In this document: in pieces, positions 1-11,172 of the stretch
Position numbering within the stretch: the first letter of the stretch is position 1
Layout: the number at the start of each line of letters is the position of its first letter
Virus record (IMG/VR): IMGVR_UViG_3300031758_000701
Span: 1-20,669 of that record
Origin: a virus
DNA: 20,669 bases
Direction: 5' to 3' (one strand)
Notes under the pieces: generated by a model
What the model saw: the letters and a program-made list of their open reading frames with translations, nothing else
Database searches by the model: none
Told to the model about the DNA's origin: nothing
Position numbers and translations under genes: made by a program

Positions 1-344
1 TCTTTAGCTTGTTTAAATAGCGTCTCTGCTACAGATGCGTTAGCTTCAATACGACCTTTGTCAAGTTCTTCTTTGTAATACTTGACAAGTGTATCATGTG
101 ATATGTTTAGTACGGAGGCTATATCCTCATGGCGTGTGCCTACTGTAGATAAAGTATAAACCTTATTTCGGGTGTCGTCACTTACAAGGTGTGGGGGTCT
201 TCCTACTTTACCGCCTTCTTCATTGTCTTTAGATAGATCGTCAACAGGGATTAACTCCTTGCTATCCTGTATAGTATTTATGTCATCGCTTATCATAGGA
301 GTGACCATATTGTCAACAGGGTTTATAGATACTTCTTCATTCAT
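1..344 (-). CDS. Small terminase-like DNA-binding protein (5' part only)
   Basis: The frame is open from an ATG at 344-342 to the left edge, so only the first 114 residues are visible. After an acidic, low-complexity N-terminus (residues 1-45) comes a GRPP motif and a helix-turn-helix (EDIASVLNISHDTLVKYY), followed by KGRIEANASVAETLFKQAK. This HTH plus the 'V-A-x-x-L-x-x-x-A' helix is typical of a phage family usually annotated as small terminase subunit, which recognises packaging sites. The leader carries AAGGAATA before the start. The gene runs leftward, like the virion genes at the other end of the window, which fits the head of the late cluster. A homeodomain-like regulator of another kind is the alternative. 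Confidence 0.6.
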   Translation of the reverse strand, partial: MNEEVSINPVDNMVTPMISDDINTIQDSKELIPVDDLSKDNEEGGKVGRPPHLVSDDTRNKVYTLSTVGTRHEDIASVLNISHDTLVKYYKEELDKGRIEANASVAETLFKQAK

Positions 345-384
345 TCGGATTATTCCTTATATATACATAACAAGTCTTTAGCTT

Positions 385-404
385 GTTACAATTTGTTACA
401 ATTT
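385..404. repeat. Tandem 10-nt repeat GTTACAATTT x2
   Basis: Two head-to-tail copies of GTTACAATTT lie between the terminase-like gene (leftward) and the small-gene cluster (rightward). They sit in the only divergent non-coding gap of this end and could be a regulator site for either side. No function can be read from the sequence. Confidence 0.5.
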
Positions 405-417
405 AATTATAGATAAT

Positions 418-428
418 ACTTGACAAGT
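418..428. promoter_or_regulatory. 11-nt palindrome ACTTGACAAGT, possible operator
   Basis: This is a perfect palindrome around a single central base (ACTTG-A-CAAGT) that covers the -35 box of the rightward promoter at 420-447. The same 11-mer occurs at 80-90 inside the terminase-like gene. A close variant, TCTTGTCAAGA, covers the -35 box of the leftward early promoter at 8688-8698. An operator for a phage repressor is an inference from this placement. Confidence 0.4.
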
Positions 429-447
429 TATTTACTAGAGATATTAT
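420..447 (+). promoter_or_regulatory. Sigma70-type promoter for the small-gene cluster
   Basis: TTGACA (420-425), 16-nt spacer, TATTAT (442-447). It lies about 40 nt upstream of the first small gene and points into the cluster. The -35 box is consensus and the -10 box is 5 of 6. Confidence 0.55.
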
Positions 448-451
448 TACA

Positions 452-467
452 TTGTCAATCTTGACAA
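452..467. repeat. Inverted repeat TTGTCAA-TC-TTGACAA
   Basis: This is a perfect 7-nt inverted repeat with a 2-nt centre, just downstream of the predicted -10 box and upstream of the first ribosome site (AGGAG at 473-477). Its position would suit a repressor site or a short leader hairpin. It carries the same TTGACAA core as the palindrome at 418-428. Confidence 0.45.
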
Positions 468-484
468 CTAACTAGGAGATAAAC

Positions 485-760
485 ATGCAAGTTAAAAACA
501 TGACAAGCCTTAAGTCTTATAACAATATACCTAATCAATTCATTATCACAGACGATAATAAGACTTACTTTCAATCTTATAAGTCTATTATCGTAAAGAT
601 TGAGAGACTAGAAGACAAGGTTATTACTTATCTTGACCCTGTATATTATAACTATTCTAGAACTACATCTAAATATCGCAATGCTTTTCTAGGAGAATCT
701 ACCAAAGAGATAGAATCAAAGATTAAACAGGGAGTTTATATCCTTGAGAATCTTAACTAG
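485..760 (+). CDS. Small phage protein, unknown function (91 aa)
   Basis: First gene of the rightward cluster, with a strong site (TAGGAGATAAAC-ATG). The protein is mixed alpha/beta and lysine-rich. Motifs FIITDDNKTYFQSYKSIIVKI and YNYSRTTSKYRNAFLG recall small conserved proteins seen in many phages of diverse bacteria, where the 'YFQSY...YSRTTxKYRxxFL' pattern recurs. It has no signal peptide, no membrane segment and no catalytic motif that I can see. Its place at the head of an early cluster suggests a host-interaction or regulatory role, but nothing in the sequence proves it. Confidence 0.75.
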   Translation: MQVKNMTSLKSYNNIPNQFIITDDNKTYFQSYKSIIVKIERLEDKVITYLDPVYYNYSRTTSKYRNAFLGESTKEIESKIKQGVYILENLN

Positions 761-836
761 TATATAGGGGAATTTATATATTCCCTTTTATAACTACGTT
801 TTATTTAAACTTGACAAATAACAGGAGTCTTATACC

Positions 837-986
837 ATGTATTATATATTATGTAAAGATCAACTTAATAACTTAATAGGAAGATCTGATAGAGTGTTCT
901 TCCCTTTTCAGATTGATTCTATTATAAAAGAACTCAATGCTAAAGAAGACGGCTATATCTATTATAAACAACTTGACAATGAATAG
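837..986 (+). CDS. Small protein, unknown function (49 aa)
   Basis: The start is set by ACAGGAGTCTTATACC-ATG. The product begins MYYILCKDQLNNL and ends YIYYKQLDNE. It is soluble and rich in Tyr, Lys and Asp. The stop codon TAG is fused to the ribosome site of the next gene (TAGGAG). No family recognised. Confidence 0.55.
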   Translation: MYYILCKDQLNNLIGRSDRVFFPFQIDSIIKELNAKEDGYIYYKQLDNE

Positions 987-998
987 GAGATTATTACC

Positions 999-1136
999 AT
1001 GTCAATAACTAGAAATTATAACGGGTCTTATACAATATCAGATATTAAAGATAACCAATATATTAAACAAACATATTACTTCTACACGCTTAAAGAAGCT
1101 AAAAGAATGTTTAAGGAATACTTGACAACATTATAA
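999..1136 (+). CDS. Small protein, unknown function (45 aa)
   Basis: Starts after TAGGAGATTATTACC. The C-terminal half (YYFYTLKEAKRMFKEYL) has the beta-strand then 'F-x-T-L-K-E-A' helix pattern common in tiny phage proteins. The gene at 2939-3118 has a similar stretch (YYFINTKKEAESIIKS), so the two may be distant relatives. No function can be assigned. Confidence 0.55.
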   Translation: MSITRNYNGSYTISDIKDNQYIKQTYYFYTLKEAKRMFKEYLTTL

Positions 1137-1171
1137 ACTTATGTATTATTACTTTATAAGGAGATTATACA

Positions 1172-1705
1172 ATGATTAATACCAATATACGCTTTAACGG
1201 CTTTTATGACTCTATTCATATGGATAACATTGACTACGCTATTGAGTCTTATTATTCAGATGATAACGGATTCTATGATTATGATTCGATAGCCGATAAC
1301 ATAGACTATAAGACAATCTTTAAAGATTATATAAACGTCTTTACAGATGAATTTAAGTCATGGATTCAAGATAACTATGATCTTGACATAGCTTTTAAGG
1401 ATTTAAACCTTATAAGCCCTAAATACTATAATTATTCAACAGATGTAATTAATTGCAATATATCAGAAAAAGACAATGCTTTATTGATGATAACCTTTAA
1501 ACGTGATAAAGACTTCATTAAGTATTTAGAGGAGAGAACTACGTCAAGAGACGGCTTTATCTCTCATTATACCTTTGGAGAGGCTTTATCAAATAAAGAC
1601 GATATTTTATCGGATTATATTTTAAATTATCTTGTCAATAAGTTTGAATCTGATAATCTATTCATGCTAGATAACTATGACTTTATTTATCAATCTTTAC
1701 ATTAA
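1172..1705 (+). CDS. Acidic phage protein, unknown function (177 aa)
   Basis: Largest gene of the small-gene cluster, preceded by AAGGAGATTATACA. The protein is strongly acidic, with many Asp in the first 80 residues (for example DYDSIADNIDYKTIF), and carries the central motif LISPKYYNYSTDVINC. Comparable 'SPKxYNxxTDxI' proteins occur in many phages next to other early genes. The high negative charge would also suit a DNA-mimic or antirestriction role, which is only a guess. The stop codon is fused to the next ribosome site (TAAGGAG). Confidence 0.75.
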   Translation: MINTNIRFNGFYDSIHMDNIDYAIESYYSDDNGFYDYDSIADNIDYKTIFKDYINVFTDEFKSWIQDNYDLDIAFKDLNLISPKYYNYSTDVINCNISEKDNALLMITFKRDKDFIKYLEERTTSRDGFISHYTFGEALSNKDDILSDYILNYLVNKFESDNLFMLDNYDFIYQSLH

Positions 1706-1717
1706 GGAGATTAAACA

Positions 1718-1804
1718 ATGAATAACTTGACAAAGAACTTCATTATATTACTATTAGGCTTTATCAACTTTTATATGTTCTTATTATTAATCTTATCTTA
1801 CTAG
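1718..1804 (+). CDS. 28-residue single-span membrane peptide
   Basis: Too short for usual gene callers, but it has TAAGGAGATTAAACA-ATG upstream and its stop TAG is part of the next ribosome site (CTAGGAGG). After MNNLTKN the remaining residues form one hydrophobic helix (FIILLLGFINFYMFLLLILS). It could be an inner-membrane peptide acting early in infection. No family recognised. Confidence 0.55.
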   Translation: MNNLTKNFIILLLGFINFYMFLLLILSY

Positions 1805-1815
1805 GAGGCTATAAA

Positions 1816-2061
1816 ATGATTAATGAAAATTTTAGCATTGGTTATAACGAGGGCTTAAACGCCCTTGAAAATATATCGCTTGTCAATGAAAACCCCGATC
1901 ATGAAATTTTAGCGGGTCTTTTATCATCTATTGCGAATTGCGTCTATTATTATGCACCTAGCGAAAAGGCTGCAAACGAGCTTTTTAAATTCGCTATGGA
2001 CTATGCAAAAGAAGAAAATGCCAAAATAGGCATGATCTTACCAAAGGAGACTACAAAATGA
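1816..2061 (+). CDS. Small helical protein, unknown function (81 aa)
   Basis: Starts after TAGGAGGCTATAAA. The product is predicted mostly helical, with alternating acidic and aromatic stretches (AGLLSSIANCVYYYAPSEKA, then FKFAMDYAKEENAK). Its stop overlaps the start of the following gene (AATGA), which implies translational coupling. No recognised domain. Confidence 0.65.
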   Translation: MINENFSIGYNEGLNALENISLVNENPDHEILAGLLSSIANCVYYYAPSEKAANELFKFAMDYAKEENAKIGMILPKETTK

Positions 2062-2231
2062 AGCGAGCCATAATAACACTTGACATTTCTTACAATGAAA
2101 CTAACTATAATAGACCTGATTCATGGATATTTTCAGAACTATTTGATTTAGATGCTGAAGAATCAGTATCAGTTATAAGTATTGAAGATGATTTACCATT
2201 ACAGGAGACTATATCATGCAAACAGAAATAG
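2058..2231 (+). CDS. Small acidic protein, unknown function (57 aa)
   Basis: Begins in an ATGA overlap with the previous stop, behind AAAGGAGACTACAAA, and ends 16 nt inside the next gene. The product (MKRAIITLDISYNE..., then FSELFDLDAEESVSVISIED) looks like a small alpha/beta fold with an acidic middle. Function unknown. Confidence 0.5.
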   Translation: MKRAIITLDISYNETNYNRPDSWIFSELFDLDAEESVSVISIEDDLPLQETISCKQK

Positions 2232-2398
2232 ACTATATAAAAGAGTTAAGCAAAGATTACGTTAAGCAAAATAAAGAGGGCTTATTCTATATTCCTAATT
2301 ATTGGGATAGAGAAGAGGCAAAATCTTATAATGTAGATTATCATAACGCTACAAGTTATTTTAAAACTATGATTAACAACCTTAATAAAGGAGGGTAA
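2216..2398 (+). CDS. Small protein, unknown function (60 aa)
   Basis: Preceded by CAGGAGACTATATC. Its N-terminus, MQTEIDYIKEL, is nearly the same as that of the next gene, MQIELDYITEA, and the DNA over the first ten codons is also similar. The two genes may share their 5' end through a local duplication. The rest (YIPNYWDREEAKSYNVDYHN) has no recognised match. Confidence 0.6.
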   Translation: MQTEIDYIKELSKDYVKQNKEGLFYIPNYWDREEAKSYNVDYHNATSYFKTMINNLNKGG

Positions 2399-2402
2399 TA
2401 CT

Positions 2403-2576
2403 ATGCAAATAGAACTAGACTATATTACAGAGGCTCTACACGCTATCGACCTCAATTTAGAAGATGTCAGTAGAGGCATTACACCCAGCGGTTATCTTAC
2501 AATTAATCAGTATTTAGATGATATGCGATATCAGTTATCAGAACTTAATACTGAAATTTCTAATTTGGAGGTTTAA
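2403..2576 (+). CDS. Small protein, unknown function (57 aa)
   Basis: Starts behind AAAGGAGGGTAATACT. It shares the MQxExDYIxE start with the preceding gene but then diverges (GITPSGYLTINQYLDDMRYQ). The C-terminal half is predicted as an amphipathic helix that could self-associate. No family recognised. Confidence 0.55.
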   Translation: MQIELDYITEALHAIDLNLEDVSRGITPSGYLTINQYLDDMRYQLSELNTEISNLEV

Positions 2577-2577
2577 T

Positions 2578-2781
2578 ATGTCTGATATTCAATATAAATA
2601 CAAATGTAGTGATATTGATAACCCTGATAATCATTATCATTATGGCATCGAATACTCTTCTGATTTAGAGGGTGTCTTTATAGACCATATAGAATGGTAT
2701 TTATCAGAAGAAGAACGAGACAAAAATTTTAATAATAGTGAAGCAATTGACGCTAACAAGATCATGGAGACCTTATTATGA
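2578..2781 (+). CDS. Small acidic protein, unknown function (67 aa)
   Basis: The ATG one base after the previous stop is chosen because TTGGAGGTTTAAT lies directly upstream. An in-frame ATG 60 nt earlier would overlap the preceding gene and lacks such a site. The protein is acidic and His/Tyr-rich near the N-terminus (NPDNHYHYGIEYSSDLEG). Its end overlaps the next start (TTATGA). Confidence 0.6.
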   Translation: MSDIQYKYKCSDIDNPDNHYHYGIEYSSDLEGVFIDHIEWYLSEEERDKNFNNSEAIDANKIMETLL

Positions 2782-2939
2782 ATAATTATTCCTATTCTTA
2801 TGACTCTGATACTAACCATTTCATGCTTTTTGTAGATGATTTGTTAGTATATGATATGTCTTATTGCGACCCTATGACCGATAACGAAGCCGAAGAGTTA
2901 GCTTTAGAGTTATTTATAGACTACAAGGAGAACAGATAA
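2778..2939 (+). CDS. Small acidic protein, unknown function (53 aa)
   Basis: ATGA overlap with the gene before and TAATG with the gene after. The product, MNNYSYSYDSDTNHFMLFVD and onward, is acidic and ends in an amphipathic helix (EAEELALELFIDYKENR). Many small phage proteins have a comparable 'DN-E-A-E-ELALELF' ending. Function unknown. Confidence 0.55.
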   Translation: MNNYSYSYDSDTNHFMLFVDDLLVYDMSYCDPMTDNEAEELALELFIDYKENR

Positions 2940-3118
2940 TGTATGTTATAGACTTTAAAAACAGAACTATTGCTAATTTTAACAATAAAAGGCTATCAGA
3001 ATTCTTAAATGATGTAATTATTTACAATCAATCTACAATTAAAAACTACTATTTTATTAACACTAAAAAAGAAGCTGAATCAATTATTAAAAGTCAAATG
3101 AAAGCTAACAATGGATAG
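2939..3118 (+). CDS. Small protein, unknown function (59 aa)
   Basis: Starts in a TAATG junction behind AAGGAGAACAGA. The first half is probably beta (MYVIDFKNRTIANFN). The second half contains YYFINTKKEAESIIKS, resembling the C-terminal part of the product at 999-1136. It overlaps the next start by 8 nt. Confidence 0.55.
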   Translation: MYVIDFKNRTIANFNNKRLSEFLNDVIIYNQSTIKNYYFINTKKEAESIIKSQMKANNG

Positions 3119-3233
3119 AGACCTAGAAAAAGTAATTATGGACTTCTTAATAGGGTTTGTTTTAGTCTCTATATTCTCGATCTTATTCAAAGTAATTGAA
3201 TTTACCCTGAAATGTATATTAAAACGATTTTAA
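3111..3233 (+). CDS. 40-residue membrane protein
   Basis: Last gene of the rightward cluster. The product MDRDLEKVIM is followed by a hydrophobic segment (FLIGFVLVSIFSILFKVI) and a short basic tail (CILKRF), so a single inner-membrane span is likely. It overlaps the preceding gene and its stop TAA is part of the terminator stem. There is no strong separate ribosome site, so it probably depends on coupling. Confidence 0.5.
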   Translation: MDRDLEKVIMDFLIGFVLVSIFSILFKVIEFTLKCILKRF

Positions 3234-3256
3234 GGCTCTTTTTAGAGCCTTTTTTA
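3232..3256 (+). terminator. Rho-independent terminator of the small-gene cluster
   Basis: 8-bp perfect stem AAGGCTCT / AGAGCCTT, TTTT loop and a run of six T. It immediately follows the last small gene and separates it from the convergent DUF6496-like gene. Confidence 0.9.
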
Positions 3257-3332: not shown

Positions 3333-3506
3333 TTACTTCTTTTTCTTCTTTGACATTCCTGCTTCTGATAAAGCGATTGCAATTCCTTGTTTTGTGGACT
3401 TGACAATATTACCGCTTTTACCTGAATGAAGCTTGCCTTTTTTGAATTCACTCATTACCTTGCCGACTTTAGCAAGTTTAGCTTTCTTTGTTGTAGGTTT
3501 TTTCAT
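3333..3506 (-). CDS. DUF6496-like small basic protein (57 aa)
   Basis: Leftward gene in the gap between the two gene blocks. The product starts MKKPTTKKAKLAKVGKVMSE and contains FKKGKLHSGKSG, a stretch with KSTKQGIAIALSEAG and a lysine tail. This 'KVMxEFKxGKLHSGKSG...VKSxKQAIAIALSEA' pattern is the DUF6496 family, common in phages and some bacteria. Its molecular role is not established. The high lysine content suggests nucleic-acid binding. It lies just after the terminator at 3518-3545, so it may only be transcribed when that terminator is read through, as expected for a late gene under Q-type control. Confidence 0.8.
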   Translation of the reverse strand: MKKPTTKKAKLAKVGKVMSEFKKGKLHSGKSGNIVKSTKQGIAIALSEAGMSKKKKK

Positions 3507-3517
3507 ATTTTACCCAT

Positions 3518-3545
3518 AAAAAAAGCCCTTTATTTACAAGGGCTT
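3518..3545 (-). terminator. Rho-independent terminator (tR'-like)
   Basis: Read leftward: stem AAGCCCTT / AAGGGCTT (8 bp), 7-nt loop, then a T-run (five T beyond the stem). It lies about 40 nt after the predicted start of the transcript from the promoter at 3590-3619 and before the DUF6496-like gene. It could end the leftward early operon and gate late transcription. Confidence 0.85.
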
Positions 3546-3583
3546 AAAACTACTACGGAAATGCTGGGCGAGACTATCCCAAC
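3518..3583 (-). ncRNA. Putative short leader/sRNA (about 65 nt), lambda 6S-like
   Basis: A strong promoter and a strong terminator bracket a stretch with no open frame. The predicted RNA starts near 3583 with a 6-bp hairpin (GUUGGG / CCCAGC, 9-nt loop) at its very 5' end and finishes with the terminator hairpin. The layout matches the lambda pR' transcript that terminates at tR' unless Q modifies RNA polymerase. A -10-like GATAGT at about +6 to +11 could act as a promoter-proximal pause signal, which is inference. It could instead be an independent small RNA or an attenuator of the DUF6496-like gene. Confidence 0.5.
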
Positions 3584-3589
3584 AACCGA

Positions 3590-3619
3590 ATTATAGCATA
3601 AAACATATTACTCTGTCAA
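3590..3619 (-). promoter_or_regulatory. Consensus sigma70 promoter (late, pR'-like)
   Basis: Leftward: TTGACA (3619-3614), 18-nt spacer, TGC-TATAAT (-10 at 3595-3590, with extended TGn). Both hexamers are perfect. The -35 box overlaps the stop codon of the Q-like gene. It is the best promoter match I found in the window. Confidence 0.75.
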
Positions 3620-3942
3620 GCGACAATACGCCTTGAAGCCATAGTTAGCATGTTATCAAAGGCTAGTGCTAATTGGTATTCATAATCATCGTATTTAGAG
3701 GTTTTAAGGTATCTAGCGTAAACTGCATCCTTTTGATCTGGCTCAAGACTGCTTATGATCGCATCAATGGTTCTGACATTGGTCATATCCATTTCTGATA
3801 CCATGTCTTCAAAGGCATCGCTAGTAGACTCTCCACCGCTAATCATACCTAATGACTTGCTAGGGTATCCTAACTTTGTGCTAGGTGCGTGCATCCACAA
3901 AGCCCAATCGTCTAGTATTTGCTTTAACCTGTCTATGTGCAT
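3616..3942 (-). CDS. Antitermination protein Q-like
   Basis: 108 aa, last gene of the leftward early operon. It begins MHIDRLKQILDDWALWMHAP. The W-x-x-W pair is followed by LGYPSKSLGMISGG, a helical linker (NVRTIDAIISSLEPDQKDAV) and YARYL, then a C-terminal helix with ASRRI. Phage antitermination Q-type proteins show the same layout: N-terminal W-x-x-W, 'GYP(S)', then 'D-A-I-x-x-L-x-x-x-x-x-A-x-x-x-x-Y'. Lambda Q loads onto RNA polymerase at the late promoter just downstream of its own gene. Here a perfect promoter overlaps the stop codon, which strongly supports that role. The family match is from memory of the pattern. Confidence 0.6.
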   Translation of the reverse strand: MHIDRLKQILDDWALWMHAPSTKLGYPSKSLGMISGGESTSDAFEDMVSEMDMTNVRTIDAIISSLEPDQKDAVYARYLKTSKYDDYEYQLALAFDNMLTMASRRIVA

Positions 3943-8443: not shown

Positions 8444-8638
8444 TTATTCTCCTTGTGGAATAGTTTCGGCTTGTCTTCTCTTAATTAAAATTTCTTCAAT
8501 TTGCTCTGCACGTTTCTTTGGAATATCTTTAGTTGGTTCTTTAGCCCAATACTGAATAGCTTGAATAGAAATATCTAAAGCATATGCCATCTTGCGTCTT
8601 GAGTTATTAAAGTGTGATACAGCTTCCGTAAAGTTCAT
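8444..8638 (-). CDS. Cro/CI-like HTH repressor
   Basis: 64 aa, first gene of the leftward operon. The pattern TEAVSHFNNSRRKMAYALDI, then SIQAIQYWAKE and IPKKRAEQIEEILI, matches lambda Cro-type proteins ('hf-s-k-LA-LGIt-qAi-W....IP..RA.qIE..t'), with the recognition helix near residues 24-32. Its ATG follows AAGGAGACTTAA 22 nt or so after the predicted transcription start. It probably binds sites near the divergent promoters and adjusts early transcription. No CI-type long repressor or integrase is seen in the window, so lysogeny is uncertain. Confidence 0.8.
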   Translation of the reverse strand: MNFTEAVSHFNNSRRKMAYALDISIQAIQYWAKEPTKDIPKKRAEQIEEILIKRRQAETIPQGE

Positions 8639-8667
8639 TTAAGTCTCCTTATTAAAAATGAGACATG

Positions 8668-8696
8668 ACTATAACACCTATTTAAAATCTTGTCAA
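8668..8696 (-). promoter_or_regulatory. Leftward early promoter (cro-O-P-nin-Q operon)
   Basis: TTGACA (8696-8691), exactly 17-nt spacer, TATAGT (8673-8668). Transcription would begin near 8661, about 22 nt before the Cro-like ATG. The -35 box lies inside an 11-nt palindrome. Confidence 0.8.
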
Positions 8697-8698
8697 GA
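8688..8698. promoter_or_regulatory. 11-nt palindrome TCTTGTCAAGA over the -35 box
   Basis: Perfect around one central base (TCTTG-T-CAAGA). It has the same CTTG-N-CAAG core as the palindromes at 80-90 and 418-428 and lies exactly where a repressor would block polymerase. A likely ligand is the Cro-like protein encoded just downstream; this is inference. Confidence 0.45.
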
Positions 8699-8738
8699 AG
8701 TTAAAAGTCGGATAAATACCACCCTATTAAAATAGTTG

Positions 8739-8767
8739 TTGACAATAATACAAAGTAGGAGTATAGT
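8739..8767 (+). promoter_or_regulatory. Rightward early promoter (recombination operon)
   Basis: TTGACA (8739-8744), 17-nt spacer, TATAGT (8762-8767), identical in both hexamers and spacer length to the leftward promoter. It leads into the small membrane gene at 8792, whose ribosome site TAGGAG follows about 14 nt later. Confidence 0.8.
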
Positions 8768-10737: not shown

Positions 10738-10809
10738 ATATTGCTCTTTTTGCAATACAAAAGCAACTAATAAACATTTATTTTACCCTAATGAAAATAC
10801 GGAGAGATT

Positions 10810-11172
10810 ATGGATTATGATGATGATGTAGTAGACTATGACGATAATAATAGGCTTTCAGAGCTTCCAGAAGCTAAACTATTGATAGCAATGCTATACC
10901 AAACAATAGATGACGCTATGTATGTTCCTAAAAAATATAAAAGAAATGCAACTGAAAGATCTATAACAACTTTAAAGTCTAAAAACAAATTAGCTTTACG
11001 AGACAAGGTAGATGCTATACAATGGTTATTTGATGATAACGATGTTTATGACCTGTGTTGTGATTTAGCTGGCATGAGCAAATACAACATTAGAGAAATG
11101 GTTATTAACAAAATAGGTGCTGATGTCATTATGCCTTTAGTTAGCGGATTCTATCAACCAAATGGACATTAA
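10810..11172 (+). CDS. Phage protein, possible HTH (120 aa)
   Basis: Preceded by ACGGAGAGATT. The N-terminus is very acidic (MDYDDDVVDYDDNNRLSELP). The C-terminal part, DAIQWLFDDNDVYDLCCDLA then GMSKYNIREMV, resembles a module seen in phage and bacterial proteins, 'A-x-x-W-(I/L)...F-x-x-x-C-x-x-L-x-x-x-x-x-x-(L/I)R', thought to be a helix-turn-helix. It may be a regulator of the downstream genes. The evidence is a pattern match only. Confidence 0.6.
   Translation: MDYDDDVVDYDDNNRLSELPEAKLLIAMLYQTIDDAMYVPKKYKRNATERSITTLKSKNKLALRDKVDAIQWLFDDNDVYDLCCDLAGMSKYNIREMVINKIGADVIMPLVSGFYQPNGH

Follow-up and report, generated by a model that had tools for sequence, protein, structure and literature searches.

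Antitermination systems comparable with the locus

In phage lambda, the gene Q is followed by the constitutive promoter pR', a terminated leader of about 194 nt (the 6S RNA) and the terminator tR'. This leader also folds a 5' hairpin (+2 to +25) near lambda's -10-like sequence. Lambda Q belongs to a protein family (PF03589; PMC7171158) other than that of the phage 21 protein (Q21, PF06530), with little fold in common. In phage 21, the promoter lies directly after the Q gene and is followed by a short leader with a -10-like element in the transcribed region and by a terminator; the segment after the first helix of Q21 swings out and forms a ring in the RNA exit channel (PMC6606751). Its Q-binding element (QBE) consists of TGAGCA direct repeats 8 bp apart in the promoter spacer, which are seen again in the relatives phi458 and SE21 together with a leader of about 50 nt. 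AlpA of Pseudomonas aeruginosa is likewise a small Q-like antiterminator with a -10-like pause element and a terminator just downstream, but it controls a cell death operon and not phage late genes, and its binding element has been defined between -10 and -35 (PMC9371919). For both phage 21 and AlpA, pausing at the -10-like element, loading of the antiterminator and read-through have been described (PMC6606751, PMC9371919). Moreover, the terminated leader between pR' and tR' of Stx phages, StxS, is itself a stable RNA (PMC7873438).

The locus studied here lies on the minus strand of an IMG/VR virus fragment of 20,669 bases with 34% G+C, analysed over its whole length and referred to as the window. 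It shares with lambda the gene order, an apparently constitutive promoter and a terminated leader, and the initial annotation had proposed a lambda-style arrangement of Q, pR', short RNA and tR'. This proposal is supported by the anatomy of the locus, by about 80 relatives and by two unrelated lineages; since the Q-like protein resembles Q21 and the leader is short, phage 21 and AlpA, not lambda, are the closer comparison. Unlike Q21, which has 162 aa, the window protein has 108 aa and falls under the Pfam cut-off. The TGAGCA repeats of phage 21 are absent from the spacer in the window's group of relatives (group A), and no element like that of AlpA is evident between -10 and -35. In addition, the terminator hairpin of phi458 begins close to the start, whereas group A has a separate conserved 5' hairpin. 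Homologues of the window gene have been annotated as 'phage antitermination protein Q' in Podoviridae sp. ctXG6705 (MW202481), where the promoter-leader-terminator element is not annotated, and as 'antitermination-like protein' in Methylophilales phage Venkman (MT375522), where no such element lies beside Q. Systems of this kind are therefore already known. What marks the present one as a variant is the compact, hairpin-bearing leader, the failure to detect a Q-binding element, and the block of opposed genes. The features are as follows.

3616 to 3942, minus: Q-like antiterminator gene, 108 aa; N-terminal helix, conserved disordered loop (21-39), sigma-region-4-like helices
3614 to 3619, minus: -35 hexamer TTGACA, overlapping the Q stop codon; invariant in group A
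3590 to 3598, minus: extended -10, TGC-TATAAT (TATAAT itself at 3595-3590)
3583, minus: predicted transcription start (+1), placed by spacing to the -10
3565 to 3581, minus: 5' hairpin of the leader RNA, TGGG..CCCA (+3 to +19), covarying to TGGA..TCCA
3573 to 3578, minus: -10-like GATAGT (+6 to +11), candidate sigma-dependent pause element
3554 to 3561, minus: second conserved leader block, TNTCCGTA (+23 to +30)
3518 to 3545, minus: tR'-like intrinsic terminator; 8-bp stem at 3545-3523, 7-nt loop, 7 T to 3518
3333 to 3506, minus: first ORF past the terminator, DUF6496, Lys-rich, 57 aa (PF20106, E 9e-9; synteny)
485 to 3118, plus: small genes of the opposite strand, probably early, separating tR' from the late genes
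3 to 344, minus: terminase small subunit-like gene (terS), putative start of the late operon (phrog_309, E 2e-8), cut by the window end

Promoter and terminator

The perfect promoter noted initially is present as described: it matches the sigma70 consensus at 12/12 positions, its 18-nt spacer ends in TGC, and the TGA of TTGACA doubles as the stop codon of Q. Two perfect promoters were observed in the window versus 0.06 expected. Among 1000 dinucleotide shuffles of the window, none contained a perfect promoter with a terminator behind it, while a perfect promoter alone occurred in 5.5%. A strong sigma70 promoter thus adjoins the Q gene, and an intrinsic terminator follows it shortly, ahead of the late genes, as in a Q - pR' - tR' switch. 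Given the terminator stem at 3545-3523, the predicted RNA is about 62-66 nt long, in line with the 8-bp terminator reported soon after the promoter. The intervening leader, correctly described as lacking a coding frame, has no ATG or GTG and a single internal TTG. Terminator stems vary in sequence among the relatives and still pair (AAGCCCTT, CCCCTG and TCCCTC types), so that the terminator has been preserved through compensatory as well as wholesale stem changes. A tandem pair of intrinsic terminators lies between the promoter and DUF6496, just past the leader, in four relatives (L018, L037, L043 and L078).

Conservation among relatives

A scan of viral_contigs found 134 relatives, of which 80 were kept; none was found in bacterial genomes (GTDB). 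About 80 IMG/VR relatives share the promoter-leader-terminator unit; the -35 and -10 are invariant, and TATAAT, which served as the alignment anchor, is present in all group A loci. In group A relatives with a complete downstream region, TTGACA overlaps the stop codon, TATAAT follows after a spacer of 17 or 18 nt, and the leader and a T-run come next. The promoter/leader pattern directly follows the 3' end of Q in 60 of the 61 viral_contigs that carry it, the remaining one being cut by the contig end, and the T-run is present in all pattern-bearing contigs with enough DNA.

Identity was compared across 61 distinct relatives, using the 1,795 pairs with diverged silent sites. Four-fold sites of Q were 57% identical and the spacer 43%, as against 87% for +1 to +19 and 89% for +23 to +30, falling to 49% for +31 to +38. 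Judged against the silent sites, selection acts on the promoter hexamers and on two transcribed blocks, and not on most of the spacer. The element is thus real and strongly conserved, and the leader RNA is itself conserved, a point that the initial annotation had missed. Outside the extended -10, no part of the unit is less conserved than the spacer; its one repeat is a degenerate TAT..TATG at offset 7 (z 4.8, from sequences that are related), and no Q-binding element like the TGAGCA repeats is evident in it, its conservation being below that of silent sites.

The leader RNA

Both leader features named initially, a 5' hairpin and a -10-like GATAGT at about +6, are in place. The context of GATAGT in the window reads TG-G-GATAGT, and TGGGATAGT occupies +3 to +11 in most group A sequences, about one fifth of the distinct variants deviating. 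The leader fold has a z-score of -2.9, and in the window's own RNA the 5' hairpin is extended to +1 to +21. At its innermost pair, 7/37 sequences have A-U in place of G-C, with both sides changed, and in 4/37 the pair is broken; for both helices together, 20 cells were changed on both sides versus 5.3 in shuffles. In the type represented by L056 and MW202481, GTTGGGATAG is kept and paired with a different 3' arm, giving a longer hairpin. When the register was tested per sequence, single P-values were modest (0.003-0.12) and two variants scored none, so the case for the 5' hairpin is made by covariation and recurrence. The hairpin ends at about +19 to +21 in all three lineages (groups A, C and D), and such a hairpin is absent at eight other window promoters and at one phage-21-type promoter.

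Possible roles of the conserved leader are in loading Q, in keeping the enzyme from backtracking to the pause, in RNA stability or as a small RNA. A more specific variant of the switch, which we put forward only tentatively and as rather doubtful, would place the Q-loading signal in the transcribed leader, in the 5' hairpin ending at about +19/+20 together with the TNTCCGTA block, and not in the promoter spacer; read-through would then also silence the opposed early genes by antisense transcription.

Could the unit instead be primarily a phage small RNA of the StxS kind, with conservation reflecting pairing with target mRNAs and Q read-through secondary or absent? The identity of the two leader blocks (87-89% versus 57% at silent sites) would fit, as would the anatomy of a 5' hairpin, a single-stranded C/U-rich stretch and a terminator, and StxS offers a precedent (PMC7873438). 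Furthermore, the gene at 10810 has a ribosome-binding site complementary to CTCTCCGTA, although this pairing has a mismatch in L082. Among the window's 49 start regions, however, no target was significant, shuffled leaders being as good in 52% and 25%; unlike for StxS, no target was thus found within the phage. No Rfam family matched the leader above threshold, sub-threshold matches being driven by the terminator, and groups C and D have different leaders in the same layout. We therefore regard this explanation as unlikely, and a small-RNA role would in any case not exclude antitermination. Within the window, no second copy of the leader block was found. The gene at 10810, which is uncharacterised and encodes 120 aa, is preceded by a conserved 5' leader of its own, CCCTAATGAAAATACGGAGA[GC] at 10785-10810 on the plus strand; it is complementary to the consensus leader block CTCTCCGTA, and not significant as a target.

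The Q-like protein

In Pfam, the window protein has a weak Sigma70_r4_2 match and no other, with no match to PF06530 at E<=1. Neither Pfam, PHROGs (only phrog_27007, E 0.012) nor NCBIfam gave a curated family match, and a sequence search of the PDB returned nothing. PF06530 was matched by 6 of 12 diverse relatives, the best at E 2e-4 and 21.6 bits versus the Pfam cut-off of 26, and hhalign to Q21/QuuD gave E 9e-5 and a probability of 60% over the N-terminal 66 columns. Because the window protein has no match and its relatives stay under the gathering score, it is called Q-like and not filed as a member of PF06530.

AlphaFold models were built for the window protein (pLDDT 77) and for an L246-type group C Q (pLDDT 78), with the window and IMG/VR sequences as the only input. 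The helix order is the same in both and fits an N-terminal helix, a mobile loop and sigma-region-4-like helices. A Foldseek search of the PDB alone gave no significant match, Q21 standing at rank 50. When the candidates were re-aligned, Q21 chains came first over the full length for the window model (6p18_Q, Z 7.6; 6jnx_P, 6.7; 6p1a_C, 6.3) and again for the second (Z 5.8, 5.8 and 5.5), with the AlpA-loaded complex fifth; this AlpA structure, 7xyb, matches the group C model over nearly its full length. All these VIA Z values (5.5-7.6) are under the tool's caution level of 8. Lambda Q was absent among the structural matches listed for both models. A fold unrelated to antiterminators, which had been named as the outcome that would speak against the Q assignment, was thus not what the models gave: Q21 is the best full-length match, and the fold is likely Q21/AlpA-like. 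The match is taken as support and not as proof, because Z is below 8 and the C-terminal half also fits a plain sigma region 4. The low confidence of the models falls on the invariant loop L24-G25-P27..G36-G37-T40, which appears comparable with the ring-forming part of Q21.

Since isolated sigma region 4 domains and Q21 fit the C-terminal half about equally well, and Pfam gave Sigma70_r4_2 alone, the protein might be thought another sigma-region-4-like regulator (an activator or anti-sigma), the terminator insulating the early operon and the promoter serving DUF6496 constitutively. This seems quite improbable: the full-length structural matches are Q21 and AlpA, the support from PF06530 and hhalign covers the N-terminal part, and insulation leaves a strong promoter just before a terminator unexplained.

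Gene order and other lineages

Upstream of Q, the minus strand encodes a P22 Cro-like protein, a DnaB-like helicase, NinB, an HNH nuclease (YbcO-like), an MT-A70 methylase and two small ORFs, a gene set that corresponds by predicted function to the right arm of a lambdoid phage. Neither integrase nor repressor was seen in the 20,669-base fragment. Downstream, group A has the order terminator, DUF6496, 2-4.5 kb of small opposed genes, and then terS on the Q strand; these late genes beyond the opposed block had also escaped the initial annotation. To our knowledge, it is in the opposed block that this gene order departs most clearly from the classical lambdoid one. No conserved consensus promoter was found upstream of terS, the best scores being about 8-10 and in AT-rich DNA. 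If pR' is the source of late RNA, its transcription would cross the opposed block antisense.

The same layout is found in unrelated DNA. In group C (L241-L251), whose Q is 55-59% identical to that of Venkman, the promoter after Q has TTGTTG and TATAAT; both the 5' hairpin (GGACA..TGTCC, GGGCA..TGCCC) and the terminator differ from those of group A, and next come a Zn-ribbon ORF and, further on along the same strand, the terminase large subunit (TerL, L244). In group D (EBPR podovirus 1 and two IMG/VR relatives), Q is followed by TTGACA-17-CAGAAT, a GGGC..GCCC hairpin and a terminator, and in EBPR podovirus 1 TerS follows directly on the same strand. Late genes are thus found downstream on the same strand in group C and in EBPR podovirus 1, while the co-directional terS of group A lies behind the opposed genes. 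An attenuator for the DUF6496 gene alone, with the leader sensing some signal and transcription reaching only that small gene, is highly unlikely in spite of the terminator lying about 10-20 nt ahead of the DUF6496 start codon in most group A relatives, given that there is no leader peptide and no competing antiterminator fold among the predicted structures, that other genes lie downstream in groups C and D in the same layout, and that the unit follows a Q gene.

Venkman (L083, MT375522) and L253 retain the Q gene without a promoter-terminator element after it. No convincing candidate for a pR'-like element was found elsewhere in Venkman; as the late genes of this phage occupy the opposite strand, its Q would need to act over a distance.

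Proposed mechanism

Processive antitermination of the Q21/AlpA type, driving a Q - pR' - leader - tR' late switch, is the explanation that we consider quite probable. It is favoured by the anatomy, the conservation in about 80 relatives, the repetition in two unrelated lineages leading into terminase genes and the Q21/AlpA-like predicted fold. The lambdoid order of cro-like gene, replication, NinB, HNH, methylase and Q supports it as well, and the lack of a consensus promoter upstream of terS counts for it. Against it stand the missing PF06530 match of the window protein, the non-significant Foldseek search, the lack of an evident Q-binding element, the position of the group A late genes behind the opposed block, and the Q genes of Venkman and L253 with no adjoining element. 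Late gene expression in this phage is therefore probably switched on in the manner of lambda, and dozens of uncultivated freshwater phages would have kept the same switch.

The elements, their conservation, the leader hairpins, the gene order and the likely fold come from sequence or computation, and the following course is proposed. Host sigma70 RNA polymerase would start constitutively at the promoter on the Q stop codon and, before Q is made, would terminate after about 62-66 nt, releasing a short structured RNA. The -10-like TGGGATAGT at +3 to +11 probably holds sigma, so that the enzyme may pause near +20. Once the early operon (Cro-like, helicase, NinB, HNH, MT-A70 methylase, Q) has supplied enough Q, the protein would join the paused enzyme via its sigma-region-4-like C-terminal part, and its conserved flexible loop (21-39) might narrow the RNA exit channel, where hairpins would no longer form. 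The terminator would then be read through into DUF6496 and subsequently into the terminase and structural genes. In group A, the enzyme would cross the opposed small genes and could help to shut them off through an antisense effect.

Such a switch would extend Q-type late control from enteric phages, and AlpA of Pseudomonas, to uncultivated environmental phages. In addition, the roughly 80 natural variants and two unrelated versions form a ready mutational set for asking which transcribed parts Q loading needs, and they also bear on why the 5' hairpin recurs in the same register.

Other sequence elements around the locus

At the end of the opposed block, a strong hairpin with a T-run (3232-3251) faces the plus strand, and late transcription would have to cross it too. 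Ahead of the small opposed ORFs lie five copies of ACTTGACAA (window 420, 811, 973, 1122 and 1727, plus), with TA[TC][TC]AT 16 nt past TTGACA, possibly repeated early promoters or operators; CTTGWCAAG is present upstream of terS too. Moreover, tandem ATTGTAA repeats about 10 bp apart, followed by TATATATAAGG, lie 5' of terS (window 344-480, minus) and in group A relatives; the window has two and some relatives more, and they could be a packaging or regulatory site. The Cro-like gene (window 8444-8767) adjoins divergent promoters that match at 11/12 positions (8696, minus; 8739, plus), an arrangement that resembles a lambdoid immunity region.
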